34,258 bases of DNA. Source: an uncultured Candidatus Peregrinibacteria bacterium. Lineage in GTDB: Bacteria > Patescibacteriota > Gracilibacteria > Peribacterales > Peribacteraceae. The DNA lies in assembly GCA_903854335.1 (NCBI GenBank), contig CAINVY010000011.1, forward strand, positions 67,007 through 101,264, in the 5' to 3' direction. Positions 4,512 to 19,763 of the stretch are shown one piece after another; the stretch's first letter is position 1, and every line of letters starts with the position of its first letter. The notes under the pieces are model-generated. The model saw only the letters and a list, made by a program, of their open reading frames with translations. It had not been told where the DNA came from and made no database searches. Position numbers and translations under genes: made by a program.

Positions 4512-4537
4512 ACAAAGAAATATTCATACGATTGTTC

Positions 4538-6973
4538 ATGCCCTCTCTTCCTCCGAGTCTCGGCGATGATCCAGGAGTACAGCCTGCAAGCGCTGGCGAT
4601 GATCTCGCACTGCGGGAAAATAAAATGGGCAATTTATTCCAATCGACTGAAGATTTCGAACAATACAAAAAGTGGCAACAGGCAGTTCCGATGTTTGTGC
4701 GTACCATTCTAGAGGCCGCCATTTTCGGAAGAACAGTTCGTATCGATCCTTCACTTCCTCCTCTCACGCGACAATTTCTTCATGCGTTGCAAGAGCTGCT
4801 CCTGCAGCCCGAGAAGGATTGTGCGCAGATTGCGGAGCTGGATCCTCGTTTGCAGCGCATTCTTCAGCCCTTACAAGCGGAAGCTACGGGAAAGGAAACA
4901 GTGAATGTTTACCGTGTTCTTGGCAGCAAAGATTATGGATTTCCTCTGAAGCTTCAGTGGTACGAAGCGAGGTTGGCCCCGCGATTGCAATGGGTCTTGG
5001 AGCAAGATCGTGGGGCTTCGGTGCCAGAAACGCAGCTCATGACCATCGATGATAAACAGACATTAAAGCTGTCAATGGATGAGGTGAATAAGAGCAAGGA
5101 GGAGATCACGAAGGGAGAATATGTTGTCCATCCGGCATACGCAGGGTACTACCGTGGTCTTGTTTGCGAGCAGTGGGATCCAGCTGCACTGGTATGGCGG
5201 GCAACAGAACGAACACTCAGGAGCGTGTCTCAGGAGGAAGATTGTGTACCGGAAACACGCCGTTTCATGCGCGGGCTCTTGCAGGCAGGAAAGACGAAGG
5301 CCGTGGATCTGCCCTACGAGTTCGCGATTGATCCACACTCCCTACCGTTTGGCGTCACGGCATTTCAGGATCAATACGACGTGTGGTATCTGCACAATGA
5401 TTTGAACGAACCGAAGGAGTGTGAATGGTCCATTGCCAAAATGAAGTCGTACAGACCCACGGCCTCGCCGCCCCTTGCATCGAAGAGAGAAATGGCGATC
5501 TTGCCGGACGAGTTGCAGTCGTTGGTTAGAGATTCTAAGAGTGCCTCCACCATGCCGACCATCGAGCGTGCACGGGCAATCGTTGCTTCCGTGCGGAATG
5601 GTCTTAAATATTCAAATAACGAGAAACTGAGTCATCAATATCGTAGTAATCCTGGGCTTTTCTTTTCGCAAGTGTGGGAACACAAGGAAGCGGATTGCGA
5701 CGTGGCAAACGCCTTAGCTGCTGAGGTGTTGTTTCAAGCAGGCATGCAAGTACGGATGGTGGTCGGGCATAGCATCAGTTCCCAAACGAAGGGAGGAAGC
5801 GCTATCCTGCATGGTGGCACACGCCATGCGTGGCTGGAGGTAAAAGATCCGAAGTGGGAGGATCACTGGGTGCGTCTCGATGCGACACCCGCGGGTGATC
5901 CGAATGTCGACGAAGAACAGCAAGAGGAAGATCTTCAGGCGCGTTCAAGAGGAGTTAAAGACGTGCCAAAGGAATTGTCCGATGATCTTTGGAGGGTTAA
6001 ATCTGATATCGACAAAGAAGAACAGAGAGTTGAAGAATCGGTTAGGAGAGATTCTCGAGGAGAAATATTTAAGGCCAAGAGGGTTGAGAAAGAGGAAGAA
6101 GTTCTGCAAAAAATTCAAACACTTCGACAGCGGTATGGCGGTGTCCTCGAGGAGTGTCGCCGTGCGTGGCATGCTGTCGTCAGTAAAAATCTCGCCAAGC
6201 AGCAGGAGGAGCAGGACTACACCGGGCCTGTCCCTCCGGATATTGGGGACGAACTAGATGAAGATTCCATCGTTGCTATTCCCATTGCTCAACGCAGCCG
6301 TGATCCGTTGCCGCTCGCCTTCAGAGCTCCGCAACGAAAAGTGACATTCGATACGGTATCCGGCGGCTACGAATTGTATATCGGAGCGGACGTATCTCTA
6401 TCGATGAAAGATAAGGATTTCACTTCCGGTTTGCGCAAGTGCGACGCGCAGCGAGACGCAGTGTTTCTTTTCGTCGACAGCATTATGCAGAACGTAGCGG
6501 AGACGAAGAGAGCGGGTCTTCTGAAAGATGCGTTGCCTGTGCGTGTCTGCGTTGCCACCTATGCCGGGGATACTTCCATCGTCCTTCCCCTGACAGAACA
6601 GTGGGGGATTGATGAGCAGGTGAAGCTCTATGATGCGTTGGAAACCTTTCGTAGTGGAACCCGAGATGATATTACTTTGAGAAATTTTCAGAAAATAATG
6701 GCAGAGTCCCCATCCTGTGATGACTCCAAAATGCACCGTGCCATCCTCATGTTTTCCGATGGAGGGACCCAGGAGCAAGATAGCGTGCGTAACGAGATCG
6801 CGAAGATGCGAATCCAAGGCATGGTGGTTGCAGGATTTGGAATAACAAACGAGGGTAGGGCTATGGAAGCCGCTTACGCCCCCGATGGCAGGACAATAGA
6901 AAATGTCGAACAACTGCCGGACGCCGGGATTCGCTATATTGTAAATCTTCTGAATACATGGTATAATACCTAG
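4538..6973 (+). CDS. Transglutaminase-like / von Willebrand factor A fusion protein
   Basis: An 811-residue cytoplasmic protein with no signal or membrane segment. The N-terminal 330 residues are unrecognised. A transglutaminase/cysteine-protease-like core follows with a full triad: Cys387 (EADCDVANAL), His430 (HAWLEV) and Asp448 (RLDATP). A charged, probably coiled-coil linker spans about 490-580. The C-terminal VWA domain has an intact metal site: DVSLS (Asp618, Ser620, Ser622), Thr708 (RSGTRDD) and Asp741 (FSDGGT). MoxR-type AAA+ ATPases are known to be encoded beside separate VWA and transglutaminase genes. Here the last two are fused and the AAA+ gene follows 6 bases later, so the pair is probably a chaperone or remodelling machine in which the VWA domain presents a target. 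The ATG at 4538 is used; a TTG at 4532 is possible. The target is unknown. Confidence 0.85.
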   Translation: MPSLPPSLGDDPGVQPASAGDDLALRENKMGNLFQSTEDFEQYKKWQQAVPMFVRTILEAAIFGRTVRIDPSLPPLTRQFLHALQELLLQPEKDCAQIAELDPRLQRILQPLQAEATGKETVNVYRVLGSKDYGFPLKLQWYEARLAPRLQWVLEQDRGASVPETQLMTIDDKQTLKLSMDEVNKSKEEITKGEYVVHPAYAGYYRGLVCEQWDPAALVWRATERTLRSVSQEEDCVPETRRFMRGLLQAGKTKAVDLPYEFAIDPHSLPFGVTAFQDQYDVWYLHNDLNEPKECEWSIAKMKSYRPTASPPLASKREMAILPDELQSLVRDSKSASTMPTIERARAIVASVRNGLKYSNNEKLSHQYRSNPGLFFSQVWEHKEADCDVANALAAEVLFQAGMQVRMVVGHSISSQTKGGSAILHGGTRHAWLEVKDPKWEDHWVRLDATPAGDPNVDEEQQEEDLQARSRGVKDVPKELSDDLWRVKSDIDKEEQRVEESVRRDSRGEIFKAKRVEKEEEVLQKIQTLRQRYGGVLEECRRAWHAVVSKNLAKQQEEQDYTGPVPPDIGDELDEDSIVAIPIAQRSRDPLPLAFRAPQRKVTFDTVSGGYELYIGADVSLSMKDKDFTSGLRKCDAQRDAVFLFVDSIMQNVAETKRAGLLKDALPVRVCVATYAGDTSIVLPLTEQWGIDEQVKLYDALETFRSGTRDDITLRNFQKIMAESPSCDDSKMHRAILMFSDGGTQEQDSVRNEIAKMRIQGMVVAGFGITNEGRAMEAAYAPDGRTIENVEQLPDAGIRYIVNLLNTWYNT
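6959..6967 (+). promoter_or_regulatory. Internal extended -10 promoter before the AAA+ gene
   Basis: TGGTATAAT lies within the last codons of the TGase-VWA gene. Its start would be near 6974, leaving a leader of only about 6 bases before the ATG at 6980. It shares the 12-mer ATGGTATAATAC with the promoter at 4503. Confidence 0.45.
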
Positions 6974-6979
6974 AAAATT

Positions 6980-9900
6980 ATGTCACACAAACCCACATCA
7001 GATTCGGCATCGGGCGAAGCGCAAAAAGACCCAGAGGATGTCTTGCAGCAAATTTTAGGAAAGAACATCGATGCATTCGCGCTTCCCGCAGACGCGGAAC
7101 AATCTGCAGAGCGACTGCTTCGGACGTATGAGACCAAGCCCGCACTCGCGGAATGGGCGTATTTACTCAGGCGAGAAATTTATGACGTTCTGCAAGACGC
7201 ACGTCGCGGAGCTGGCACGCAATCCACACCCGTTGCCGGTACCGAAGGTGCAGGATCCGATGCCCAGAAACAACCCATGACGGTGGAAGAAGTTTTGCAG
7301 ACGTCGCCTGCTCTCCAGACACGGCTTGCCCTGTACCGAAAGCTTCTGCATCAAGAATTCGACAGCGATGCTGACGGGCCCATGCTTTCCTACATGGGAA
7401 AGCAGTGGCGACGGCACACGAAGGAACGCAGTTTGGTGAATGGCGAGTATGCGAAGGCGAGTAGTCTTCTCGCGGAGAAATCTGTGCTTGAAGAGCAGCT
7501 GACTGCCGTGCTTGGTCGCATGTTTTGCCACCGGAAAGGCGATCCCGATTCTCTGGATGTTGCCAAACGCTATGCTCTCGAGCAGGACATTGCTGAGATC
7601 GATAATAAAGTCGCGATCATCAGGCAGGAAAAGCCGGAGGTTGCTGCCCTCTTGCAGTACGATGAAATGCAGAAGCGGTTGCACGAGCATCACAACAGCG
7701 GTTTCATGCAATTCGTCAGTCGCCAGAGACTAATGAACAAACTTCTGAAAGGTTTGGTATCCACGAAACCTGCCGTCCTCATGCTCGGGGAATCCGGCGT
7801 GGGGAAAACCGCAGTGGCGAGAGAATTGGGGAAAGCAATCGGCGTTGATGTGATTTACAGCCTCCCCCCCGGCGACACGTCGGAGCCTGTGCAGAGACTC
7901 CTTGCGACAAAGGGGTGGGAAGGAAACAAGGACGTGTATCGATTTGGACCTTTGCTCCAGGCGATGACGGGATACGAAACGTCTGAGGACATGCAGCATG
8001 GGAAAAATCGGCATTCCGGGTGCATTTTCTTCGATGATGAATTTAACAAGCGTACGAGTACACAGCAGGCGCTCATTCTCAAGTTTGTGGCTGCTGCCAA
8101 ACCCGGGCAGGAAGTCGATGTTCCCGGCACTTCGTTGCGCGTCTTCGTGCAGCCGAAATTTGCCTATCTGGCGGCGGGCAATCCGCCGAGCACTCGCTAC
8201 GAACGGAATGAAACGCCGCTGGAAGCGTACCGCGAAGTGTCGAACAGATTGCTTCTCGATTATCTGGAGCAGACACCGGCGCAGCCGGAACTGTATGAGG
8301 CGATGGTTGCCGCCCTCCTCGATGAAAAAACGGGGCGTCTGCGAGTGGTGGGCGAGAATGATGTCATGCCGGGGTATCGCAAACTTCCTTTTCAAGAAAA
8401 GCAGGTACTGGAAACAGATCCAAAGGAATGTGGGGTCATTTGGAACTTCGCCAACGCATGGAAGCAGACGCTGCTTGCATTTTCGCACCAGCCGACGGAA
8501 TTTCATAAGCTCTATCCCGCTGCCGCTCCCAGTACGTACCATCTTGATAAGATCATTTTGGACATTGGAAAAGTGTTGCAGTGGCTTCGCGATTTTAAAT
8601 TGGATCGACGAGCGCAGAGACGAGGCATTAAATGTTTTCTTCAAGAGAAACTCACCGATGAGCTGGAAGGACAGGTACATGCTACAGATGCCGAAAAGCG
8701 TCTTTTTGCAGACTATTTCAGAGCGCACGGCATTCTTGTGGAGAGACCTTCACCAAATGACTACCGTCCATCGCAGCCGAGCGTCCTGACACCCGTGCAG
8801 GTCGGTTATCTCTTTCCGCAGGTACCGCGACCCGGCAGCAAAGAAAAACAAAAACTCGAGTCTCCAAAGGGCAAATCGGCGCTCCTACCCGATGGATCGG
8901 AAGTACGATACGAGCCCGAAGCCTACCCCGTCGGGCGCATTATCTTTGTGCCGGGTGACAGTGTGAAGCTTAAGAATGGACAGGAAGCAGTGTACGTAGG
9001 ATCTGTGGAGGCAGATGCGAATAAGCGATTGCTTGTCCGACTCGCAGACAGCCAATTGAATAGGGTTATAGAATTCAGTGAGATCGATGGAAAAGCGACA
9101 CTCGCACTTATGAAAGGTATATCGGAGGTGGTCGAGGATCCGCGTCTCCAAGAAGTCAAAGACATTATCGAAAAGGGTGGGGGTACCTTCTACGGTCCGC
9201 AGTCTCTGACCGCGATGGGGTTGAAAGCGCCGGAAACTCTTCCTCCTCTCCCACCGCGGAAAGTCATCGAGCGCTACGCCGCTCTTGGATTTGATTTGAG
9301 GCTTCAGGTGTCCACAACTCCGGATGGCAAAGACCTCACTTTTGCAATGATGAATTCCATGCTGCAAAAGAAGCTCGATGAGCTCCCGGATACTTCCCCC
9401 CCCGCAGGTCGTATTCTTTATAAGGACGAAAACAGAGACAGCACAAAAAAACTGCCTCAATTGTTTTACAGCAAGGCAAGGGTCTCGACCTGCTGGGCTT
9501 TCACTTCCGGCCTGAAGACGCGCGGATGTGAACATGGACTACTCAAAGATCCCACAAGACCACAAAATTATTGTCGACAAGCACCCAATCTCATTAATTT
9601 CATCAAGCAACTCATGCCAAAGGAGACTCTATGGCAAAGAGGGTTGCGGATGATTATGAGATCAAGAGATGCAGAAAGAGACCTTCTCCAGAGTGCCGTG
9701 AAGGAGCGCAATGTAAAAGCGACGTACTATGGCGCCAAAAGGCGTGAGCTTGATCCAGAGGATTTTAGTAAGGAACAAAATGAAAGTGTTGCTCGCCTTG
9801 CCATCAATCAGTTGTTTCGCGCCGAAGCGCAGGACGTTCTCTTCTGCTTTGCTCAGACATTTCTCAATAGTCCTGCGAACCAGCGAGAGCGACTGATAGA

Positions 9901-10072
9901 TAATTCCGTTGCCTGGACGAATACGCGCACTGAGCGTGGTAACTTCGTTGGCATTGGTGCGTTCATTCCCACCGGTGCGAATATCCTGACGACAGCATTT
10001 AACCGTGAATTTTGGAGTAGTTGGGGTTCTGGAATCTTCCTCTCTCGGAAGTTTGGTGTCGGTCAATCTTGA
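6980..10072 (+). CDS. Large MoxR-like AAA+ ATPase
   Basis: A 1030-residue protein, about three times the length of ordinary MoxR ATPases. An N-terminal helical region (1-255) precedes one AAA+ module. The module has Walker A GESGVGKT (270-277), Walker B IFFDDEF (349-355), sensor-1 Asn401 in AAGNPP and a probable arginine finger Arg423 in SNRLL. The wording around Walker B and sensor 1 (DDEFNK, AAGNPP) is MoxR-like. Residues about 645-705 look like a small beta-barrel (VPGDSVKLKNGQEAVYVG), and about 320 more residues to the end are unrecognised. No membrane segment is seen. It starts 6 bases after the TGase-VWA stop and surely works with it. Possible roles are metal-cofactor insertion, complex assembly or defence; the sequence does not choose among them. 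Confidence 0.85.
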   Translation: MSHKPTSDSASGEAQKDPEDVLQQILGKNIDAFALPADAEQSAERLLRTYETKPALAEWAYLLRREIYDVLQDARRGAGTQSTPVAGTEGAGSDAQKQPMTVEEVLQTSPALQTRLALYRKLLHQEFDSDADGPMLSYMGKQWRRHTKERSLVNGEYAKASSLLAEKSVLEEQLTAVLGRMFCHRKGDPDSLDVAKRYALEQDIAEIDNKVAIIRQEKPEVAALLQYDEMQKRLHEHHNSGFMQFVSRQRLMNKLLKGLVSTKPAVLMLGESGVGKTAVARELGKAIGVDVIYSLPPGDTSEPVQRLLATKGWEGNKDVYRFGPLLQAMTGYETSEDMQHGKNRHSGCIFFDDEFNKRTSTQQALILKFVAAAKPGQEVDVPGTSLRVFVQPKFAYLAAGNPPSTRYERNETPLEAYREVSNRLLLDYLEQTPAQPELYEAMVAALLDEKTGRLRVVGENDVMPGYRKLPFQEKQVLETDPKECGVIWNFANAWKQTLLAFSHQPTEFHKLYPAAAPSTYHLDKIILDIGKVLQWLRDFKLDRRAQRRGIKCFLQEKLTDELEGQVHATDAEKRLFADYFRAHGILVERPSPNDYRPSQPSVLTPVQVGYLFPQVPRPGSKEKQKLESPKGKSALLPDGSEVRYEPEAYPVGRIIFVPGDSVKLKNGQEAVYVGSVEADANKRLLVRLADSQLNRVIEFSEIDGKATLALMKGISEVVEDPRLQEVKDIIEKGGGTFYGPQSLTAMGLKAPETLPPLPPRKVIERYAALGFDLRLQVSTTPDGKDLTFAMMNSMLQKKLDELPDTSPPAGRILYKDENRDSTKKLPQLFYSKARVSTCWAFTSGLKTRGCEHGLLKDPTRPQNYCRQAPNLINFIKQLMPKETLWQRGLRMIMRSRDAERDLLQSAVKERNVKATYYGAKRRELDPEDFSKEQNESVARLAINQLFRAEAQDVLFCFAQTFLNSPANQRERLIDNSVAWTNTRTERGNFVGIGAFIPTGANILTTAFNREFWSSWGSGIFLSRKFGVGQS

Positions 10073-10802: not shown

Positions 10803-11450
10803 TCAAGAGGCGGAGCCCCCGTCCGCGCCCGGCAATTCGTCAAACTGCAGGAAGCGGAAGGTGGAGAGAATCTGTTCCGGTTCGGTCAAGATTGCCTCGG
10901 GATCCACCAGATGCGCCTGTTTCGCGGAGTCGAACTCCCCGGCGCTCGTGCGAATCGTTGCGCGGACCATGATGTAGTTCCCCGAGTCCTCATGGAGAGG
11001 GAAATCGCGGATGAAGAGGTAGGTCGAGCTGAGACTGCCATCATCGTTCGTGAAGTTCGGCGTTGCGAGGGCGTAGACCTGCCGGTCGGCGACCTTCCAT
11101 CCCGCCTGACGCATATCGGGGAGCAGTTCCTTCTTGAGCGATCCGCGGATCTTCTCCAGTGTAATTTCATTGTGCGATATTCCGTTGGTGATATTCAGGA
11201 TGCTGCTTCCCGTCTCCTCTTGCAGGACATAGGACGATGGATAGCGGAACGAAAATCCCTGTTTCGCAGAGCTGTACATCTTCCATGAGGTGGCATCCAC
11301 CTGGGTGGCGCAGCGGATCATGGGGCGGGGATCCGTTAGCGGCCCAAGAAAGGACAAGAGCGAAGCGCCCGTACGGGCATAGAAGGCCAGGATCAGGCAG
11401 AAGACGATGCCGAAGGCGATACCGGAGAAGAAGGTGGAGGATTTATTCAT
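10803..11450 (-). CDS. Membrane-anchored hypothetical protein (215 aa)
   Basis: The N-terminus has one strong hydrophobic segment (FFSGIAFGIVFCLILAFYA, residues about 7-25) acting as an uncleaved anchor or signal. A soluble extracytoplasmic domain follows. That domain contains KQGFSFRYPSSYVL, a phrase typical of PsbP-like or lipoprotein-like beta domains in small-genome bacteria, but I do not assign a family. The ATG at 11450 overlaps the stop of the DUF35 fusion gene by 4 bases, indicating translational coupling inside the operon. No link to isoprenoid synthesis is evident. Confidence 0.75.
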   Translation of the reverse strand: MNKSSTFFSGIAFGIVFCLILAFYARTGASLLSFLGPLTDPRPMIRCATQVDATSWKMYSSAKQGFSFRYPSSYVLQEETGSSILNITNGISHNEITLEKIRGSLKKELLPDMRQAGWKVADRQVYALATPNFTNDDGSLSSTYLFIRDFPLHEDSGNYIMVRATIRTSAGEFDSAKQAHLVDPEAILTEPEQILSTFRFLQFDELPGADGGSAS

Positions 11451-12385
11451 AGTGAGGTGCGCGGATTGTAGCCTGAACTCTCCGGCGTCGGGAGATGTTT
11501 TCGAAGGGACGCGACGACGGTGTCGAGGTCGCCGTTGACCAGGATGCGGTCGAAAAGATCCTTTCGTTCTCTGAGGAATGCGAGTTCGCTCTCGGCGTGC
11601 TTGAGGGAGCGACGGATGAATTCTTCACTGCGGTCTCCTTTCTTGAGGAGCCTTCGAAGCAAGTGACTGAGCATTGTGCGCTTGCTGCGCCCGGGCGGGA
11701 GCAGGCCGAAGGAGAGCAGCGAGCGTCTTCCGTAGTGCGCGGCGAGCTCCTGCAATAGATGCGTTTCGGTGATCACGACGGGCAGTTTCCCTTTCTTCCA
11801 AATGCGTTCGATGTCCGATGCGCGGTATCCGTACCAACATTCTTCGTCCCCGTCGGTCGTCGCATGCGCCATGGCGACAATCTCTCCTTTGCGCTTCAGT
11901 TCCGTGAACGCGCGCTTGGTGAGGCAATGTGTGCGCTCATCCTTTCGCATGCGCCGTTCACACGTTTTGAGGATCGGCACGGCTTCTGCGTAGTCGGCGG
12001 TCATGCGCAGGAGGAGACGACTCACCGTCGTCCTACCGACGCCCGTGGGTCCCGTGAGGGCGAGAATGTATCCGGGAAAGACCTGCATCGGTGCCGTCTT
12101 CTCCTGGAGCGACTCGAAGCTCACATCGTAGATGCGCAGTCCTTCGGCATTCACGGACTGGAGGCGCATGCGTGGATGGACGGATGAGCCGATGGGAAGG
12201 GGAGCGGTGAGTGGGGCGATGATGCGGGACTGGTCCTCTAGCTGGATCAGCGCGATGTGCCGCGGATGATGACCCATGCGGGAGGGCGGGTGCGCGAGCG
12301 TCGTGCATGCCAAGACTGTTCCATCCTGGAGCTTTGCGGAGAGGCGTTTCTGGGCGCGATGGATGATGGGAGAGGTGTCAGGCAT
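11447..12385 (-). CDS. DUF35 OB-fold fused to guanylate-kinase-like domain
   Basis: A 312-residue two-domain protein. Residues about 15-92 match the OB-fold of DUF35 acyl-CoA-associated proteins: GTVLACTTLAHPP, then HIALIQLED, then PIGSSVHPRMR, then LRIYDVSFE. The zinc ribbon that normally precedes this fold is absent. Residues about 103-300 resemble guanylate kinase: P-loop GPTGVGRTT (112-120), WYGYRASDIERIWKKGK, and a C-terminal FIRRSLKHAESEL...FDRILVNGDLD pattern. The P-loop Lys is replaced by Arg118 and the usual S-x-TTR-x-x-R nucleotide-binding motif is degenerate (CERRMRKDER), so activity is doubtful. The start overlaps the thiolase stop by 8 bases. In archaea a DUF35 protein bridges thiolase and HMG-CoA synthase; the context says this domain does the same here. 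The role of the kinase-like half is unknown. Confidence 0.75.
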   Translation of the reverse strand: MPDTSPIIHRAQKRLSAKLQDGTVLACTTLAHPPSRMGHHPRHIALIQLEDQSRIIAPLTAPLPIGSSVHPRMRLQSVNAEGLRIYDVSFESLQEKTAPMQVFPGYILALTGPTGVGRTTVSRLLLRMTADYAEAVPILKTCERRMRKDERTHCLTKRAFTELKRKGEIVAMAHATTDGDEECWYGYRASDIERIWKKGKLPVVITETHLLQELAAHYGRRSLLSFGLLPPGRSKRTMLSHLLRRLLKKGDRSEEFIRRSLKHAESELAFLRERKDLFDRILVNGDLDTVVASLRKHLPTPESSGYNPRTSL

Positions 12386-13508
12386 GGGTGTGTTCCAGGA
12401 TATGGATGCCGCAGGTGGCCGCAGCGCCTCCGAAATTGTGTGCTAAGCCGAATCGTTCTCCGCTCTTGCACAGTGCCTTCGCGACATCAATGACTTGTTT
12501 GATTCCGGTGGCGGCGACGGGATGGCCGCACCCCTTCAGACCGCCGCTCTCATTCACGAGGATCTCCGCGTCGCTCTTGCGCTTGTAGAGTCGGCGATAG
12601 ATATCGACGCCGTGTCCGGGATCGGCGAAGCCGAGGTCTTCCAGGTTGATGAGCGCGGCAATGGAGAAGCAGTCGTGCGTCTCGAGGAAACGGATGTCCG
12701 ATAGCTTGATTCTCGCTTCTAAGAGAGCCTTTTCCGATGCCTCTTTGGTCGCGGGGAACGTGGTGATGGACGGCCGGTGTGTGAGACTCAGCGTATCTGC
12801 TGCGATCTGCGATGCCGCGATGCGGATGGTGCTTCCATGCTCCGTCGAGAGGATGCATGCTGCCGCGCCGTCGGAGATGGGCGAACAGTCGAGGAGGCGC
12901 AGGGGATCGGCGACGAGCGCGCTCTCGGAAACCGTCTCGGGCGAAATCTCCGATCGAAATTGTGCGAAGGGATTCTCTTTCGATCGTGCGTGGTGAACGG
13001 CGCTCACGAGGCTGAGATCCTCGCGCCGAAGTCCGTACTCGTACATGTACCGGCTTGCGATGAGGCCGAAGATGCCGGGGAAAGTGAGACCGGACGGTCG
13101 ATCCGCTTCGGCGTCCGCCGCTCCCATGAGCGCTTGCGCGATCACATCGGGAGAGACGTCCGTCATCTTCTCGGCACCGACGACGAGCACCGTCTTCGCT
13201 CGTCCGCTCTCGAGGAATGCGCAGGCCGTGTGGAGCGCCAGGGAGCCGGACGCGCAGGCCGATTCCACGCGTATCGCAGGTGGGCGGTGCGGCAGCAAGG
13301 ACGAAGCGAGCGATCCCAATTGCGCCTGGTCGCTCCCGATTTCCCCGAGCATGTTGCCGACGATGATCAGGTCGATATCGAGCGCGGTGCAGGGCGAGGA
13401 GGTGATGGCCGTGTCGATTGCTTCGCTCATGAGATCACTGAGACTCTTGTCCCAATGCTCGCCGAAGCGAGTTTGTCCCATGCCGCTGAGGAAAATTTCA
13501 CGTTGCAT
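12378..13508 (-). CDS. Archaeal-type acetyl-CoA acetyltransferase (thiolase)
   Basis: Condenses two acetyl-CoA to acetoacetyl-CoA, the first step of the mevalonate pathway. The 376-residue protein is of the SCP-x/archaeal thiolase type, shorter than classical thiolases. Cys84 in VESACASGSLALH is the nucleophile. LETHDCFSIAALINLEDLGF and SGGLKGCGHPVAATG supply the other active-site motifs, with His in GHP. It starts 3 bases after the HMG-CoA synthase stop and overlaps the DUF35 fusion gene downstream. This is the arrangement seen for the archaeal thiolase/HMG-CoA synthase/DUF35 complex, in which the unfavourable condensation is coupled to the next step. Confidence 0.88.
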   Translation of the reverse strand: MQREIFLSGMGQTRFGEHWDKSLSDLMSEAIDTAITSSPCTALDIDLIIVGNMLGEIGSDQAQLGSLASSLLPHRPPAIRVESACASGSLALHTACAFLESGRAKTVLVVGAEKMTDVSPDVIAQALMGAADAEADRPSGLTFPGIFGLIASRYMYEYGLRREDLSLVSAVHHARSKENPFAQFRSEISPETVSESALVADPLRLLDCSPISDGAAACILSTEHGSTIRIAASQIAADTLSLTHRPSITTFPATKEASEKALLEARIKLSDIRFLETHDCFSIAALINLEDLGFADPGHGVDIYRRLYKRKSDAEILVNESGGLKGCGHPVAATGIKQVIDVAKALCKSGERFGLAHNFGGAAATCGIHILEHTHA

Positions 13509-13511
13509 GAT

Positions 13512-14543
13512 TCAGGCCTGGAGGATGCCGCAGTGTTCGAGGTACTGGTCGTAGGAGAGTTCTTCCAGGGGGCGAGTATCCGGCGAAAGTGGCACGCCGT
13601 CACGCAGCATTGTGAGGAGGAAGGCGTCCGATCCCGATCCCGATCCGTACGAAATGAGAAGGATTCTCTCGTCTTTCTTCGCCGCTTGCAGTACGGAGAC
13701 AAGCCCAAGAAGCGAACAGGCGCTGTAGGTATTGCCGATGTCTGTCACGATGAAACCGGACTGGATCTGTTCTTTGGAAAATCCGAATTCCTTCGCGATC
13801 GCGCGAGGAAACTTGGCGTTGGGCATGTGGAGGACGATGTGAGAGAGATCCTTCGGATCGGTTTTCGTCGTTTCGAGGATTCCGCGAAGCGCCGTGCGTA
13901 CGTGGTGGAAGTACGCCGGTTCCCCCGTGAATCTCCCCGCATGATGCGGAAATTTCTCCTCCGATGGACGCCAGAAATCGGGCGTGTCGGTGGTGAAGGA
14001 GAGCGTTGCGTCAATCCTGCAGAGAGCGTGCGGGGATTTTTCCGAACCGACGATCACTGCTGCGGCACCTGCTGCAGCCGTATACTCGAGCGCGTCTCCG
14101 GGTCGTCCCTGGGCCGTATCCGTCCCAATCGCCATGCCGTACGCAATCTGTCCACTCCTCACAAAACTATCAACGATCTGCATGCCGGCGGTTCCCGCCT
14201 TGCAGGCAAATTCGAGATCTGCCGCGAAGCAGAATGGATCAAGTTCGAGGGCGGAGGCGAGCATGGAGCTTGTCGGCTTCACTGCGTAGGGATGACTTTC
14301 TGATCCCACGTAGATCGCGGAGATTTGTGTCGGCTTGATGCCGGCCATATCAATTGCTTGCTTGCTCGCTTCGAATGCCATCGTGAAACTGTCCTCGCCT
14401 TTCCCCGGAACGGTCTTCCACGCGATGCCGAGTGCTTTCGTCACTTCCGCGCCGCTTTGTCCCCACCGCTTCGCGATCTCTTCCAGGCGAATCCTGTAGT
14501 GCGGAACGTATTTCCCGAAGCCGACAATGGCCGCCGTGGGCAT
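13512..14543 (-). CDS. Hydroxymethylglutaryl-CoA synthase, archaeal type
   Basis: Joins acetoacetyl-CoA and acetyl-CoA to HMG-CoA. The 343-residue length and start (AIVGFGKYVPHYRI) are those of the archaeal subfamily, shorter than the Firmicute and eukaryotic enzymes. The catalytic Cys114 lies in LEFACKAGTAGMQIV; GKGEDSFTMA carries the conserved acidic residue; VLHMPNAKFPRA contains the active-site His. It is the second gene of a minus-strand operon, 51 bases after HMG-CoA reductase and 3 bases before the thiolase. It has its own extended -10 box 7 bases before the ATG. No Shine-Dalgarno is present. Confidence 0.92.
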   Translation of the reverse strand: MPTAAIVGFGKYVPHYRIRLEEIAKRWGQSGAEVTKALGIAWKTVPGKGEDSFTMAFEASKQAIDMAGIKPTQISAIYVGSESHPYAVKPTSSMLASALELDPFCFAADLEFACKAGTAGMQIVDSFVRSGQIAYGMAIGTDTAQGRPGDALEYTAAAGAAAVIVGSEKSPHALCRIDATLSFTTDTPDFWRPSEEKFPHHAGRFTGEPAYFHHVRTALRGILETTKTDPKDLSHIVLHMPNAKFPRAIAKEFGFSKEQIQSGFIVTDIGNTYSACSLLGLVSVLQAAKKDERILLISYGSGSGSDAFLLTMLRDGVPLSPDTRPLEELSYDQYLEHCGILQA

Positions 14544-14594: not shown

Positions 14595-15767
14595 TTATTG
14601 ACGTTTTCTAGCGAGTTTTTTGTGTGCGGATGCGAGTGTGTGACTTGCCTGTGCTGCGAGGAGCGAGACTTCGCCGGCGAGGACGGCGGCCGCGAAGGAT
14701 TCGGCTAATTGCGCTTGGGGTTTGAGAGAGGCTTTGGGATGAAGTAGCAGCGTGAGGCAGTCGGATTGTGACGGTAGGGAAATGCCGCCGCCCCGCACGC
14801 CGAGGAGCAAGGCCGGGAGGTCGACGTGTACGCGCAAGCCGTCTCCTTCTCGCGTGACGGTGGTGTCCGCGAGGGAGCCTTCGACCGTGTGAGCGGCGTC
14901 CTGGCCCGTTGCGATCAGGAGTGCCGCGACGATGTTTGCGACGTGGAGATTGCGACCGAGAGCGCCTGCAATCGTCGAGCCTGCTTCGAGCTTCGCCGTC
15001 GCCACTTCCGCCATATCAGATGCATTTGACTTGAGTACTTCCTCGATCGTTTTTGCATCGAGGAATGTCTCGGCGCAGGCGCTATATCCTCGTCCTTTCT
15101 CCTTCGTTCGCACACTTGGTTTCTTATCCGAATCCACGTTCCCTGCCACCGTCACAAAATGCGCTTCGCAGTCCTTCGCCCGGGCTTCGATCCATTGTCC
15201 GCAAGCTTCTGCGGCGATCGTCACCATGTTCATGCCCATGGCTTCGTCCGTATCGCAGCGAAGCGTGAGGAAGACGAATGGCGCGGATACATCGATATCG
15301 AAGCCCAATACTTTCAAATGTGCACTTGTCCCCTCGGCTTCCTGTGTCCACTCCTTCTCGTTATTTCTCAGCCACTCGCTGAACTCTTCCCCGCTTGAGG
15401 GGATGCGAAACGCAAGAGAGCGCGTCATACCTCGGTGTATCGATGACGTTTTGACCCCGACGGCCGAGAGCGCTTTGCATCCGCGATTGACGCTCGCCAC
15501 AAGCGCGGCTTCTGTGGTGGCCAACGGCAAATGGACGTTGCATGTTTCTCCCGAACTGAATGTCACGAGGAGGGGGCCGGCGTACCCGATGGGAACCGAC
15601 ACACAACCGATCATCTGCTCGCAATTTCGCTCATCGGCGGATCCGATAACATCTGTGTGCGCAGTCAGGTGGGGGAGTACAATGCCAAGCTCTTGCTCGA
15701 CCCGCTGTCGTCTTTCCGTGCAGCGTTCCTGCGCATCGAGGCCCGGTGGAAGTGTACGGAGATCCAT
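14595..15767 (-). CDS. hmgA: HMG-CoA reductase, class I
   Basis: Reduces HMG-CoA to mevalonate with NADPH, the committed step of the pathway. The 390-residue soluble protein lacks the eukaryotic membrane domain. Catalytic residues are present in class I context: Glu86 (PLATTEAALVAS), Lys215/216 (DSDKKPS), Asp290 (ATGQDAAHTVEGS) and His382 near the C-terminus (SHTLASAHKKL). The cofactor motif DEAMGMNM is at 174-181. The N-terminal dimerisation motif (ERNCEQMIGCVSVPIGYAGPL without its last residue) is recognisable. It heads the minus-strand operon and is divergent from a GHMP kinase gene with only 23 bases between the two ATGs. A TACACT box ends 7 bases upstream of this ATG. Confidence 0.95.
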   Translation of the reverse strand: MDLRTLPPGLDAQERCTERRQRVEQELGIVLPHLTAHTDVIGSADERNCEQMIGCVSVPIGYAGPLLVTFSSGETCNVHLPLATTEAALVASVNRGCKALSAVGVKTSSIHRGMTRSLAFRIPSSGEEFSEWLRNNEKEWTQEAEGTSAHLKVLGFDIDVSAPFVFLTLRCDTDEAMGMNMVTIAAEACGQWIEARAKDCEAHFVTVAGNVDSDKKPSVRTKEKGRGYSACAETFLDAKTIEEVLKSNASDMAEVATAKLEAGSTIAGALGRNLHVANIVAALLIATGQDAAHTVEGSLADTTVTREGDGLRVHVDLPALLLGVRGGGISLPSQSDCLTLLLHPKASLKPQAQLAESFAAAVLAGEVSLLAAQASHTLASAHKKLARKRQ

Positions 15768-15790: not shown

Positions 15791-16762
15791 ATGACGGATT
15801 GCGCCACCGCATCGGCACCAGGGAAGCTCATGCTCATGGGCGAGTATGCGGTATTGCATGGGGAACCTTGCATCGTCACTGCGGTCTCCGCACGTATGCG
15901 AGTAACGGTGCGACGCACGGAGACCGATGACTTGGTCTTGCATGCGGAAGATGTAGGGTTGATGAATTTTTGTAAACCGATTCAGCAACTCGGAGTAGGT
16001 AATATTTCTAAAGCCACTGTATTTGTGGAAACCTCCCTTCGAAACTTTCGCGAAGCCTATCCGTTTGACGGTGGACTGATTGTTGAAACGTCTTCGGAAT
16101 TTCCCGCGACCCTCGGCTTCGGATCATCCTCCGCGATTACCGTGGCGATCATTGCGGCTCTCTCTTCACTCCTTAAAGTTTGTCTTACGGACCGTCAAAT
16201 TTTCGATCTTTCTTACAAGACAGTTTTGGATGTGCAGAAGAAAGGTTCGGGATTCGATGTCGCAGCAGCGGTGTACGGTGGCACGCTCCTCTTCACTTCC
16301 GGTGGTACCGTGATTGAGCCCATCGATGTTTCACCTTTTCCGCTTATTGTTGGTTATACGGCAATCAAGGCGGATACGGTGACACTCATTGATGCTGTAG
16401 GGAAGAGTGAGGATGAAAATCCAAGTGAAGTACATTCGATATTCGAAAAGATTGGCGCGCTTGTTCTTCGTGGGCGATCAGCGATGGAGGATGCAGACTG
16501 GCGCACACTTGGCACTCTCTTCAATCACAATCAGATGTTGCTCACTGCACTCGGAGTCAGTCATCCAAAACTCGATACTATGATGCTCGCCGCGTGCGAC
16601 GCGGGCGCGCTTGGAGCAAAACTCTCTGGTGCGGGTGGTGGTGACTGCATGATTGCAGTTGCAGAAGCTAACTCGATGGAAATAGTAAAGAAAGCTATTG
16701 CATCAGCTGGTGGTCAGATCATTCCTGTCACTTTCTCCGCGTTGGGCGTCACGCTACACTGA
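15791..16762 (+). CDS. GHMP kinase of the mevalonate pathway, phosphomevalonate kinase favoured
   Basis: A 323-residue GHMP kinase: Lys12 and Glu18 in APGKLMLMGEYAVLHG, the ATP loop LGFGSSSA (108-115), and the C-terminal KLSGAGGGDC (277-286). Two details favour phosphomevalonate kinase. The motif around Asp156 is GSGFDVAAAVYGG, as in ERG8-type enzymes, rather than the P-S-G-(I/V)-D of mevalonate kinases; and GGGDC is typical of phosphomevalonate kinases. Against this, the stretch NHNQMLLTALGVSHPKLD is mevalonate-kinase-like. A second GHMP kinase at 17743-18543 has the mevalonate kinase signature, so the two steps are probably split this way. The ATG at 15791 has a TATCAT box exactly 6 bases upstream. 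It is followed by the decarboxylase after 6 bases. Confidence 0.75.
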   Translation: MTDCATASAPGKLMLMGEYAVLHGEPCIVTAVSARMRVTVRRTETDDLVLHAEDVGLMNFCKPIQQLGVGNISKATVFVETSLRNFREAYPFDGGLIVETSSEFPATLGFGSSSAITVAIIAALSSLLKVCLTDRQIFDLSYKTVLDVQKKGSGFDVAAAVYGGTLLFTSGGTVIEPIDVSPFPLIVGYTAIKADTVTLIDAVGKSEDENPSEVHSIFEKIGALVLRGRSAMEDADWRTLGTLFNHNQMLLTALGVSHPKLDTMMLAACDAGALGAKLSGAGGGDCMIAVAEANSMEIVKKAIASAGGQIIPVTFSALGVTLH

Positions 16763-16768
16763 ACTTTC

Positions 16769-17746
16769 ATGAGGAAGATAGCTACAGCGACGGCCCCTGC
16801 GAACATTGCTTTTGTGAAATACATGGGCCGTAAGGATGATGTGTTGCGACTGCCTGATAATGGAAGTATCTCCATGAACTTAAGTGGCATCTTCTCAACG
16901 ACAACGGTTGAATTCCTACCCTCACTTTCTCAGGATGACATTCTTATCGATGGAGAGGGAAGAGTGAATGAGATTGCTCGTGTTGTTGCTCATCTTGATA
17001 GGGTTCGCGAGCTTGCTTCTTTTTCGGATCGAGCCAAAGTTGTCAGCGCGAATAACTTCTCGATCGGGACAGGTCTTTCATCCTCTTCCTCGGGATTTGC
17101 AGCCCTGACGGTCGCCGCATGCGCTGCCGCAGGACTAAAATCTTCGCAGAAACAATTATCGATTCTCGCTCGCCAAGGTTCCGGTTCTGCCTGCCGATCT
17201 ATTCCTGATGGCTTCGTCGAGTGGTTGGATGGATCGTCAAATGATACCTCCTACGCGTCTTCGATCTTTCCTCCTGACTATTGGGATATTGTGGACGTCG
17301 TTGCGATGGTGAGCACCGAGCGCAAGGAGATTGGGAGTTCTCAGGCGCATGAACGCGTGCGCTCAGGTCCGTATTATGTGTCTCGCATTGCACGCATGCC
17401 TGCAAAAATTCGTCAGTGTAAGGAGATTCTCGCTGCGAAGGACTTCACCGCTTTCGGCCAATTCCTCGAGGAGGAAGCTCTCGATCTCCATGCGCTTTTT
17501 ATGAGTGCGGGCATCGTGTATCTCACGCCGGAGAGTCTGCGCTTGATTCGACTCGTCCCCATAATTCGCAAGAGGGGGATCGAAGCGTACTTTACGCTCA
17601 ATACGGGCCAAGATGTGCATATGTTTTGCCGGAGCAGGGACGCAGTAGAGCTAAAACCCGTTCTCGAGAGCCTCGGTTGGGTACGCAAAGTCGTTGTTAA
17701 TACCCCCGCGAAGGGTGCTTCCCTCATCGCTGAACATCTCTTCTAG
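16769..17746 (+). CDS. mvaD: Diphosphomevalonate decarboxylase family protein
   Basis: Expected to convert mevalonate 5-diphosphate, ATP-dependently, to isopentenyl diphosphate. The 325-residue protein has the family's APANIAFVKYMG start (usually KYWGK), a TGLSSSSSGFAALTVAA ATP loop and the signature GSGSACRSIPDGFVEW at 137-152. The region that normally reads FTMDAGPNV, with the catalytic Asp, reads FTLNTGQDV, placing Asn278 where the catalytic Asp should be; Asp282 lies nearby. The enzyme may therefore be a variant with altered chemistry or substrate. Its stop codon and that of the convergent kinase are the same CTAG palindrome at 17743-17746. Family membership is sure; the precise reaction less so. 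Confidence 0.82.
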   Translation: MRKIATATAPANIAFVKYMGRKDDVLRLPDNGSISMNLSGIFSTTTVEFLPSLSQDDILIDGEGRVNEIARVVAHLDRVRELASFSDRAKVVSANNFSIGTGLSSSSSGFAALTVAACAAAGLKSSQKQLSILARQGSGSACRSIPDGFVEWLDGSSNDTSYASSIFPPDYWDIVDVVAMVSTERKEIGSSQAHERVRSGPYYVSRIARMPAKIRQCKEILAAKDFTAFGQFLEEEALDLHALFMSAGIVYLTPESLRLIRLVPIIRKRGIEAYFTLNTGQDVHMFCRSRDAVELKPVLESLGWVRKVVVNTPAKGASLIAEHLF

Positions 17747-18543
17747 GGTTTAAGAGCGAGCACCATCCCGCCACCTCCGGTTTTTCCTCCTGCGCCGATC
17801 ACCTTCGCCGCGCCTCCTTTTGCTTCGATCTGTGCGATCAGTTCCTGCACTGCAGAAGGAACGATGCCGAGGATGACTTGTGCGCGATGATGGTCACGGA
17901 AGATGGCGAGAGGATCTTCTCCTCCTAGCAGTCGGTTCGTGCACGCTCCAATGCTCTTGAGAGCGTCTGCGATGGCGGGTTCCTGAGAGCGGCTGCGTAT
18001 CCATGATACGAGTTCGACCGTCGATTCATGCGGGTTTCCCGTATCGATAAACGTTCCATGTGCAAGAAAATCTAAGTCGAGCATTGCTGTAGAGGACGCG
18101 GCTCCTCTCTGAAAACGCAGGGGTTGATTGTCCCAGATGACGGCGAAATCAATGCCGCTATTGCCTGGATTCACGACATCTTCGATCGCACGCGCTTCAT
18201 CTTCGCAGTCATTTCCAAGCAAGCAGCGGCACGTTGCGATGACGAACGCGGTCGATGATCCCATGCCTTTGCCGAGCGGAATATCCGAATGGACATGGAG
18301 TATTCCGGGCAGTGTTCCCGACGTTTCCTCGCAGAGAGAGACGACCCTTTGAGCGTATCTTTGCCACGTTCCATCCTCCTTGATTTGCGGCCAGTCGATG
18401 CGCAGATTTGTTGCGTCCGCTTGTTCTTCGTATGTTGCAAATACACATTGTGATGACGGAACGGCAATGCCCGGATACCCGAAGAGGACGGCGTACTCGC
18501 CGCTCAGGATGATCTTCCCCGGTGCGTTCGTTTCCCTGTTCAT
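17743..18543 (-). CDS. GHMP kinase, probable mevalonate kinase
   Basis: Probably phosphorylates mevalonate at the 5-hydroxyl. The 266-residue protein is short for the family. It has Lys10 and Glu16 (APGKIILSGEYAVLFG), the ATP loop PLGKGMGSSTA and the mevalonate kinase-type motif GNSGIDFAV with catalytic Asp132. FIDTGNPHESTVELV matches the family's D-T-G...S-T segment. The C-terminal glycine loop is unusual, GAGGKTGGGGM instead of TGAGGGGC. The start overlaps the uppS stop by 4 bases, so translation is coupled in an idi-uppS-kinase operon. It overlaps the convergent mvaD by 4 bases. Confidence 0.78.
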   Translation of the reverse strand: MNRETNAPGKIILSGEYAVLFGYPGIAVPSSQCVFATYEEQADATNLRIDWPQIKEDGTWQRYAQRVVSLCEETSGTLPGILHVHSDIPLGKGMGSSTAFVIATCRCLLGNDCEDEARAIEDVVNPGNSGIDFAVIWDNQPLRFQRGAASSTAMLDLDFLAHGTFIDTGNPHESTVELVSWIRSRSQEPAIADALKSIGACTNRLLGGEDPLAIFRDHHRAQVILGIVPSAVQELIAQIEAKGGAAKVIGAGGKTGGGGMVLALKP

Positions 18544-19220
18544 GATCCGAAGCGTCGTGCGCGGGCGGAAAAATCATTCACGGACTTCGCGAGATCATCC
18601 GTTGTGAAGTCGGGGAAGAAGGTATCGACGAACGCCCACTCGGCGTACGCGCTCTGCCAGAGAAAGAAGTTGCTCGTTCGCTGCTCGCCTGAGGTACGAA
18701 TGACGAGATCGAGATCCGGAAGTTCGGGGTGGTCGAGGTGCGAACGCAGAGATTCTTCCGTTGCTTCTCTATCTTTCAATTTCCCAATCGCACGAAGGAT
18801 TTCATCTTTCCCTCCGTAATCGACGGCGAGGTTCAGCGTGAATTCCGTCTGATCCTTCGTTTCCTCGGTAACGTCTTCCAGGAGTGTGGCGAGTGTCGCC
18901 GGAATTCGATCGCGTCGCCCCGAATGCAGGAGCCTGGTCTTCTCTTTCAGGAACCCTTTGCGTTCCTGTCGAAGGTATTCTTCGAGGAGTCGCATGAGAT
19001 GATCCACTTCTTCGCGGTCGCGTTTCCAATTCTCGGTCGAGAAGCACCAGACCGTGAGCGTCCCGACGCGCGGATCGCGGCGACACCACTCCGTGAGCGT
19101 GCGGAAATTCTCCACGGCTTTCTCGTGCCCGTTCCAAGGTTTCAGTAGGTGCTTCGCTGCCCAGCGTCGGTTGCCGTCGGGGATGATGGCGATGTGCAGC
19201 GGATCGGAAGGAGAGGTCAT
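18540..19220 (-). CDS. uppS: Undecaprenyl diphosphate synthase (cis-prenyltransferase)
   Basis: Adds isopentenyl units in cis to an allylic diphosphate to make the lipid carrier for wall synthesis. The 226-residue protein has the catalytic motif IIPDGNRRWA (Asp15), WCFSTENWKR, and the C-terminal DLVIRTSGEQRTSNFFLWQ and AEWAF that bind diphosphate and form the dimer contact. The wording PDGNRR rather than MDGNGR is a common variant. It is the second gene of the idi-uppS-kinase operon, 18 bases after idi. No trans-prenyltransferase for the farnesyl or geranylgeranyl primer is in this window. Confidence 0.93.
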   Translation of the reverse strand: MTSPSDPLHIAIIPDGNRRWAAKHLLKPWNGHEKAVENFRTLTEWCRRDPRVGTLTVWCFSTENWKRDREEVDHLMRLLEEYLRQERKGFLKEKTRLLHSGRRDRIPATLATLLEDVTEETKDQTEFTLNLAVDYGGKDEILRAIGKLKDREATEESLRSHLDHPELPDLDLVIRTSGEQRTSNFFLWQSAYAEWAFVDTFFPDFTTDDLAKSVNDFSARARRFGS

Positions 19221-19238: not shown

Positions 19239-19763
19239 TTATTCTGCACTCTTTCGGAGAATGATTGCCAACCCGAGGTGAAACCACGGGGCGTACGAGA
19301 GGGGATGCAGCTTCATATCTTTCTGGAGATCTGTGAGCGAGATCCATTTCCACTCCGCGACTTCCGCGGGGTCGGGCGTGACGATTTCGGGGACGGCCTT
19401 TCCGAGGAGGATCGTGTCGTACTCGTACTCGACGCCGTGATCTTCATCTTCCGCGCGGTACACGAAAGAGGAGGCTTCGTAGAGTTTGCAGGTGAATCCC
19501 ATCTCTTCGAGGAGTCGCTTTCCACCCGCTTCCTCGGGCTTTTCGCCTCTCTGCAGATGACTGCAGCAGGTGTTTGCCCAGACGAGAGGCCACAGCTGCT
19601 TCTTCGCGCTTCGTTTCTGGATCAACAGCTCGGCTGTTTCTTGATTGAAGACGTAGACGGAGAAGGCGCGATGGAGGAGTCCTTTTCCCGCATGCGCTTT
19701 CTCTCTATCCGCTTCGCCGAGGATCGTTCCGTTTTCGTCGGTGAGGAGTACGGAAGAGGCCAT
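19239..19763 (-). CDS. idi: Isopentenyl-diphosphate isomerase, type 1
   Basis: Interconverts isopentenyl and dimethylallyl diphosphate, required for organisms that use the mevalonate route. The 174-residue Nudix-fold protein has the catalytic Cys67 in VWANTCCSHL and the acidic EYEYD motif that carries the catalytic Glu. GKGLLHRAFSVYVFN at the start of the core also matches type 1 enzymes, and LLIQKRSAKKQLWPL follows it. It is the first gene of the minus-strand idi-uppS-kinase operon. The ATG at 19763 has no Shine-Dalgarno. A TTGGGC/TATAGG pair about 50 bases further upstream is a weak promoter candidate. Confidence 0.93.
   Translation of the reverse strand: MASSVLLTDENGTILGEADREKAHAGKGLLHRAFSVYVFNQETAELLIQKRSAKKQLWPLVWANTCCSHLQRGEKPEEAGGKRLLEEMGFTCKLYEASSFVYRAEDEDHGVEYEYDTILLGKAVPEIVTPDPAEVAEWKWISLTDLQKDMKLHPLSYAPWFHLGLAIILRKSAE

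Follow-up and report, generated by a model that had tools for sequence, protein, structure and literature searches.

A DUF35 OB-fold fused to a guanylate-kinase-like domain in the mevalonate operons of Candidatus Peribacteraceae: a candidate for the missing kinase of the pathway, and its probable remnant where the kinase site has decayed

Why should a mevalonate operon encode a DUF35 protein that carries a guanylate-kinase-like domain with a broken active site? The question is raised by a 34,258-nucleotide stretch of DNA from an uncultured Candidatus Peregrinibacteria bacterium, the whole of which we call the window. In agreement with the initial annotation of this DNA, the fusion gene (FUS) stands in a mevalonate operon, with the genes for thiolase, HMG-CoA synthase and HMG-CoA reductase upstream of it on the same strand (Table 1). 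MVK-A and MDD-A diverge from these three genes, and GHMP2, UppS and the isomerase lie on the minus strand again. Across the family, the gene neighbourhoods repeatedly show the order UppS-GHMP2-decarboxylase-HMGR-HMGCS-thiolase-FUS. On the other side of the fusion, with an overlap of 4 bases, is a gene (window 10803-11450) whose short product has a hydrophobic stretch at its N-terminus and gives a weak match of PsbP type; this gene adjoins the fusion in the related genome G001 too. Window positions 4532-10072 encode a large transglutaminase/VWA-like protein and then a 1030-aa AAA-type ATPase.

Table 1. Features of the fusion gene and its neighbours in the window (positions are those of the window; residue numbers are those of the fusion protein)
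Feature	Position	Strand	Basis or remark
Fusion protein FUS, 312 aa	11447..12385	-	ORF; N-terminal helix, DUF35 OB-fold, guanylate-kinase-like domain
OB-fold, DUF35/ChsH2 type, residues 20-92, without zinc ribbon	12110..12328	-	PF01796; profile match to 6ESQ chain E; no CxxC
Guanylate-kinase-like (GK) domain, residues 105-300, predicted pseudokinase in the window genome	11486..12073	-	PF00625; AF2 model; fold search Z 23
Degenerate P-loop GPTGVGRT, residues 112-119, Walker lysine replaced by Arg118	12029..12052	-	alignment with relatives
Lost TTR motif, reading KTC, residues 140-142; Cys in place of the acceptor-phosphate-gripping Arg (yeast R38)	11960..11968	-	alignment
Lost acceptor-phosphate Tyr (yeast Y50), reading Thr152	11930..11932	-	Y in 22/22 intact relatives, gone in 6/6 decayed
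Acceptor-site R-x-Y motif, residues 183-185; family-specific Arg183 replaced by Cys, Tyr185 (yeast Y78) kept	11831..11839	-	alignment
Residues 219-247 (GRRSLLSFGLLPPGRSKRTMLSHLLRRLL)	11645..11731	-	most family-invariant positions retained in decayed copies too
Thiolase-family protein, archaeal type	12378..13508	-	3' end shares 8 bases with FUS start
HMG-CoA synthase, archaeal type	13512..14543	-	TIGR00748 above cut-off
HMG-CoA reductase	14595..15767	-	PF00368
MVK-A, third GHMP kinase, of the mevalonate-kinase lineage; its motifs GSGFDVAAAVYGG and GAGGGDC resemble those of phosphomevalonate kinase, the role proposed for it	15791..16762	+	
MDD-A, diphosphomevalonate-decarboxylase homologue, type R/H/N	16769..17746	+	TIGR01240 above cut-off; residues
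GHMP2, mevalonate-kinase-like GHMP kinase that accompanies both gene arrangements; putative mevalonate kinase	17743..18543	-	
Undecaprenyl diphosphate synthase (UppS)	18540..19220	-	
Type I isopentenyl diphosphate isomerase (Nudix)	19239..19763	-	TIGR02150 and NF002995 above cut-off

The N-terminal part of the fusion resembles the DUF35 subunit of the archaeal thiolase/HMG-CoA synthase complex. On the window protein the model PF01796 falls just below its gathering score (E 4.7e-5, 23.7 bits against 27.1); it reaches 27.1 bits in a whole-genome search with the neighbours in frame, and 35 to 46 bits, all above the cut-off, on seven scanned relatives. A profile of 28 relatives matches chain E of 6ESQ, which is the DUF35 protein in the structure of the archaeal complex, with an E value of 7.8e-7 over profile positions 19-90. 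The likeness to the archaeal system extends from this OB-fold to a gene that adjoins those for thiolase and an archaeal-type HMG-CoA synthase. The fusion differs from it in the absence of the N-terminal zinc ribbon and in the added C-terminal kinase-fold domain, and bridging is predicted here from gene neighbourhood. No CxxC zinc motif was found upstream of the GK domain in a sequence check of the 28 homologues, and the AlphaFold2 (AF2) models place a helix where the rubredoxin-like zinc ribbon at the DUF35 N-terminus would be.

The C-terminal domain scores above the cut-off of PF00625. The AF2 model of the window protein (pLDDT 83.9) aligns to GMP-bound guanylate kinases in a fold search with a Z of 23, the rows listed covering the GK domain only, so that the OB part is assigned from sequence profiles and the AF2 strand pattern; a second model, of the intact relative L147, reached a pLDDT of 85.2. 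These results bear out the initial annotation in its placing of a DUF35 OB-fold, in the missing zinc ribbon and in the guanylate-kinase-type domain, and a literature search found no description of the architecture, which it had thought new. Its reading of a P-loop GPTGVGRTT with Lys118 replaced by Arg, and of a degraded TTR-x-x-R motif (KTCERR in the window where TTRxxR is expected), is also correct. Both changes recur in G001, the only genome of the same genus with a full fusion, and are therefore not sequencing errors. At the Walker A position these two genomes alone have Arg, Lys being present in the other 26 fusions. The top PDB match of the family profile is FAP42 (7n6g chain 6M), an axonemal central-pair protein with several GK-like repeats.

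How widespread the fusion is was assessed in 36 genomes (G000-G035) of the window's own family, Candidatus Peribacteraceae, the window genome being G000. It is present in 28 of them, every time adjoining thiolase. The eight family genomes without it gave no match to archaeal-type HMG-CoA synthase and no GHMP protein, and among the 36 the two-domain fusion is seen only where the mevalonate pathway occurs. A further 23 genomes from elsewhere in the class, more distantly related, did not show it. In a scan of some 85,000 species genomes, full-length matches among the best 80 loci came from Candidatus Peribacteraceae/Peregrinibacteria and from one record labelled Candidatus Kaiserbacteria (L150, JACRFK010000003.1); the latter holds a typical Peribacteraceae-like fusion and may reflect a mislabel, bin mixing or transfer. 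Two genomes contain an additional short match each (G005:C71:44109-44228 and G016:C31:9822-9938), covering roughly residues 261-303 at the C-terminus of the fusion; these may be partial duplications. That an assembly or sequencing artefact joined two genes, a concern already voiced in the initial annotation, has a negligible probability: it is ruled out by the 28 genomes with the fusion, single-contig G030 included, and nothing was found in its favour. Chance resemblance is excluded by homology.

The window copy is atypical of the 28 fusions, being one of six in which the kinase site has decayed. The site is intact in the other 22, namely the 21 fusions in genomes without MVK-A and that of G028. 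We aligned the GK domains of the fusions with 19 canonical guanylate kinases (gmk) from within the family, and also with the yeast enzyme, which gives the numbering; for the site assignment we assume the yeast sequence (1GKY) and its residue roles. Intact relatives share with guanylate kinase the fold, the P-loop, and the phosphate-binding and lid residues: every one of the 21 fusions without MVK-A retains K14, T36, Y50, Y78, R131, R135 and R146; 20 retain R38, and Lys usually stands at R41. The guanine-reading residues are swapped in all 21, mostly for hydrophobic ones (S34 to I, E69 to A/S/T, S80 to Y), as is D98 (to V/I), whereas the canonical gmk have S, E and T at guanine-binding positions 34, 69 and 80 in 19/19. 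The guanine readers are replaced in all fusions; the family also differs from guanylate kinase in a family-specific Arg183 and a GLLPPGxSxR segment, and the window copy in the loss of the Walker lysine. A kept phosphate grip together with replaced guanine readers is what one would expect if the kinase still took a phosphate acceptor, but one with a different, more hydrophobic body. The extra conserved Arg183 could suit either a carboxylate or a phosphate.

The pathway as it has been described leaves room for a kinase. A 2016 account of Peribacteria presents a near-complete mevalonate pathway and leaves the conversion of mevalonate 5-phosphate into the diphosphate unlisted (PMC4736985). We found exactly two GHMP proteins genome-wide in 20 fusion genomes (the incomplete G035 gave none). 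One of them, GHMP2, resembles mevalonate kinases in its profile scores. The other is a decarboxylase, MDD-B, which in 19 of these 20 genomes carries N/H/D residues as in the phosphomevalonate decarboxylase (PMD) of A. thermophila (6n0x); the engineered 6n0z and true diphosphomevalonate decarboxylases (DMDs) have Lys and Met at the first two of those positions. A PMD can be converted to a DMD by mutagenesis (PMC9254496), and Lys has been described as the DMD marker and His as the PMD marker (PMC11052028). As a PMD-type decarboxylase makes isopentenyl phosphate, an isopentenyl phosphate kinase (IPK) is then needed. Among 12 genomes tested, none had a match above the cut-off of NF040647; of the leading matches below it, two (in G000 and G005) are glutamate 5-kinase rather than IPK. 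No GHMP-type phosphomevalonate kinase (PMK) was found in the 20 two-GHMP fusion genomes. The animal PMK model PF04275 had no match in 32 genomes, but its control was equally silent, and absence cannot be read from that result. The isomerase was matched in 18 of 18 fusion genomes searched, above the cut-off in 16.

With no GHMP-type PMK found in the two-GHMP genomes, and no known IPK in those searched for one, the missing kinase is most plausibly the GK domain; given the PMD residues of the decarboxylases, its reaction is best guessed to be that of an IPK. We therefore lean, with no great confidence, towards the view that the intact GK domain is the missing kinase, most likely a new IPK on a DUF35 scaffold, and that it has decayed where a PMK-like GHMP kinase is present. 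The DUF35 OB-fold of Peribacteraceae would be expected to bridge thiolase and HMG-CoA synthase, and the C-terminal guanylate-kinase-fold kinase would have switched its acceptor. In most members the GK domain would add the second phosphate of the mevalonate pathway: phosphomevalonate decarboxylase would make isopentenyl phosphate, and the GK domain would most likely convert this to isopentenyl diphosphate. Such an enzyme would resemble known IPKs (NF040647) in its proposed reaction within a PMD-type pathway; it would differ in fold, being unrelated to the amino-acid-kinase-fold enzymes, and would be anchored to the complex at the head of the pathway. Where MVK-A and the different decarboxylase MDD-A are present, they would make GK activity dispensable, and the site would decay while the fold and the OB scaffold were still selected. 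The 8-base overlap between the FUS and thiolase genes supports this explanation. The fusion, the operon, the domain identities, the residue patterns, the missing known enzymes and the decay pattern are read from sequence, and from them we infer catalytic activity, the identity of the acceptor and tethering. Stated in full, namely that a second, structurally unrelated kind of IPK arose from the guanylate-kinase fold, was fused to a DUF35 scaffold as the last kinase docked on the complex of the first two enzymes, and repeatedly became a pseudokinase once a PMK route had been taken up, the proposal is a tentative one to which we give slightly less than an even chance.

It is possible instead that the intact GK domain is a PMK, converting mevalonate 5-phosphate to the diphosphate, and that the decarboxylase of the two-GHMP genomes is a true DMD. 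Animal PMK, a P-loop kinase of a mevalonate-pathway phosphate with the NMP-kinase fold, offers a precedent, and the lack of a GHMP-type PMK in the two-GHMP genomes would be accounted for. On TIGR01240 their decarboxylases reach the DMD cut-off or come close to it, and GK decay coincides with the PMK-like GHMP kinase. In G025, which has no MVK-A, an intact GK site is paired with a K/H/N decarboxylase closer to MDD-A; this pairing would suit a PMK role and counts against an IPK. PMK was our first reading, demoted once the decarboxylases showed PMD residues: the PMD-type Asn and His predict isopentenyl phosphate as the product in all but one of the two-GHMP genomes. The acceptor pocket has also grown more hydrophobic, and on balance we consider a PMK unlikely. 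Another candidate role is that of a second guanylate kinase, or of a kinase for an unrelated small phosphate, fused by an accident of operon position. Guanylate kinase is the best curated match of the GK domain, and G003, one of the eight family genomes without the fusion, retains a stand-alone GK-like domain of the FUS family (L050:9498-10256), without the OB part and with intact active-site motifs, beside a divergent secY-adk pair. Searches of G003 for HMG-CoA synthase, a GHMP protein, UppS and type I isomerase found none, and an intact lone domain that persists without the pathway also speaks against an IPK. However, scores on the guanylate kinase equivalog TIGR03263 (48.2 bits for the window, 78 to 80 for two relatives, 48 to 82 overall) lie far under its cut-off of 160.45, and S34, E69, S80 and D98 are substituted in every fusion without MVK-A. 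Most genomes, moreover, have a separate gmk of higher score, and the two-domain fusion is restricted to genomes with the mevalonate pathway, all of which makes a second guanylate kinase very improbable.

The initial annotation had itself proposed that the second half of the protein is a scaffold or a nucleotide sensor responding to GMP/GDP status. A scaffold without catalysis, in kind like the GK domains of MAGUK proteins, is plausible for the decayed copy of the window: this genome and five others have lost catalytic residues, while many other invariant positions stay and selection continues. As an account of the whole family it is improbable, since the Walker lysine and the catalytic residues are kept in 22 of 28 fusions, which is hard to explain for a pure scaffold. 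The guanine-reading residues are gone, which makes GMP sensing unlikely, and the retuning of the intact relatives away from guanine points to a pathway enzyme rather than a sensor.

Returning to the proposed IPK, its predicted redundancy can be set against the distribution of decay. MVK-A and MDD-A occur together in seven fusion genomes, among them that of the window. Of these seven, six have a decayed GK site, against none of the 21 genomes without MVK-A (Fisher 1.9e-5, ignoring descent). Trees indicate at least three independent decay lineages (3 to 5), and independent pairs give 3/4 (p 0.25); with so few independent decays, the corrected support for a link to MVK-A is modest. The decayed G021, G023 and G027 are grouped in the GK tree and not in the thiolase/HMGCS tree, and separate counting of each tip is unsafe. 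The intact GK site of G028, despite MVK-A and MDD-A, counts against the explanation. The proposed PMK role of MVK-A draws on the motif GSGxD[IV]A, present in all five copies examined, and on GDC, present in three of those; both match solved PMK sequences, and whole-length scores favour mevalonate kinase. MDD-A is the sole decarboxylase found in the three-GHMP genomes, and its closest PDB match is the A. thermophila enzyme (6n0x). It has R at the Asn/Lys position. Each of the seven three-GHMP genomes, and G025 as well, has Asn where DMD and PMD carry the catalytic Asp (TLNTGQDVH). A decarboxylase without the catalytic Asp makes the route in these genomes uncertain, and this too weighs against the explanation.

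What, then, is the domain in the window? Among positions that never vary in the 22 intact copies, those missing from at least three of the six decayed ones belong mostly to the active site: Y50 is gone from all six, and Y78, R146 and the family-specific R183 and R251 from five each. Many other invariant positions, the GLLPPG stretch included, are kept in every decayed copy, and residues 219-247 are a candidate structural or contact surface. The GK domain evolves relatively fast in comparison with the OB domain in most decayed lineages; a rough calculation gives about 0.01 with three independent events, a value of 0.0004 presupposing five and not being usable. Between G000 and G001 dN/dS is about 0.12, which argues that the window protein is not a pseudogene. 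Since site decay is confined to genomes with MVK-A, the GK domain of the window would be a former kinase, its retirement marked by the P-loop Arg and the broken TTR motif that the initial annotation pointed out; purifying selection continues to act on it, and its role is now probably structural. MAGUK GK domains (PSD-95, Dlg, CASK) provide an analogy, though not a membership, in that a catalytically lost GK fold is retained in a scaffold; they align less closely (Z about 14 to 18, against 23 for true guanylate kinases) and have no partner domains in common with the fusion. By that analogy, what remains in the window is probably a scaffold part together with a fold kept for structure or contact.

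The fusion is a concrete candidate for the missing kinase of the Peribacteria pathway, and it predicts a PMD-type route in candidate-phylum bacteria. If the proposal is true, isopentenyl phosphate kinase would have had an independent origin from a nucleotide-kinase fold, and the two ends of one pathway would be physically linked. The family would then also offer a natural series of transitions from enzyme to scaffold.
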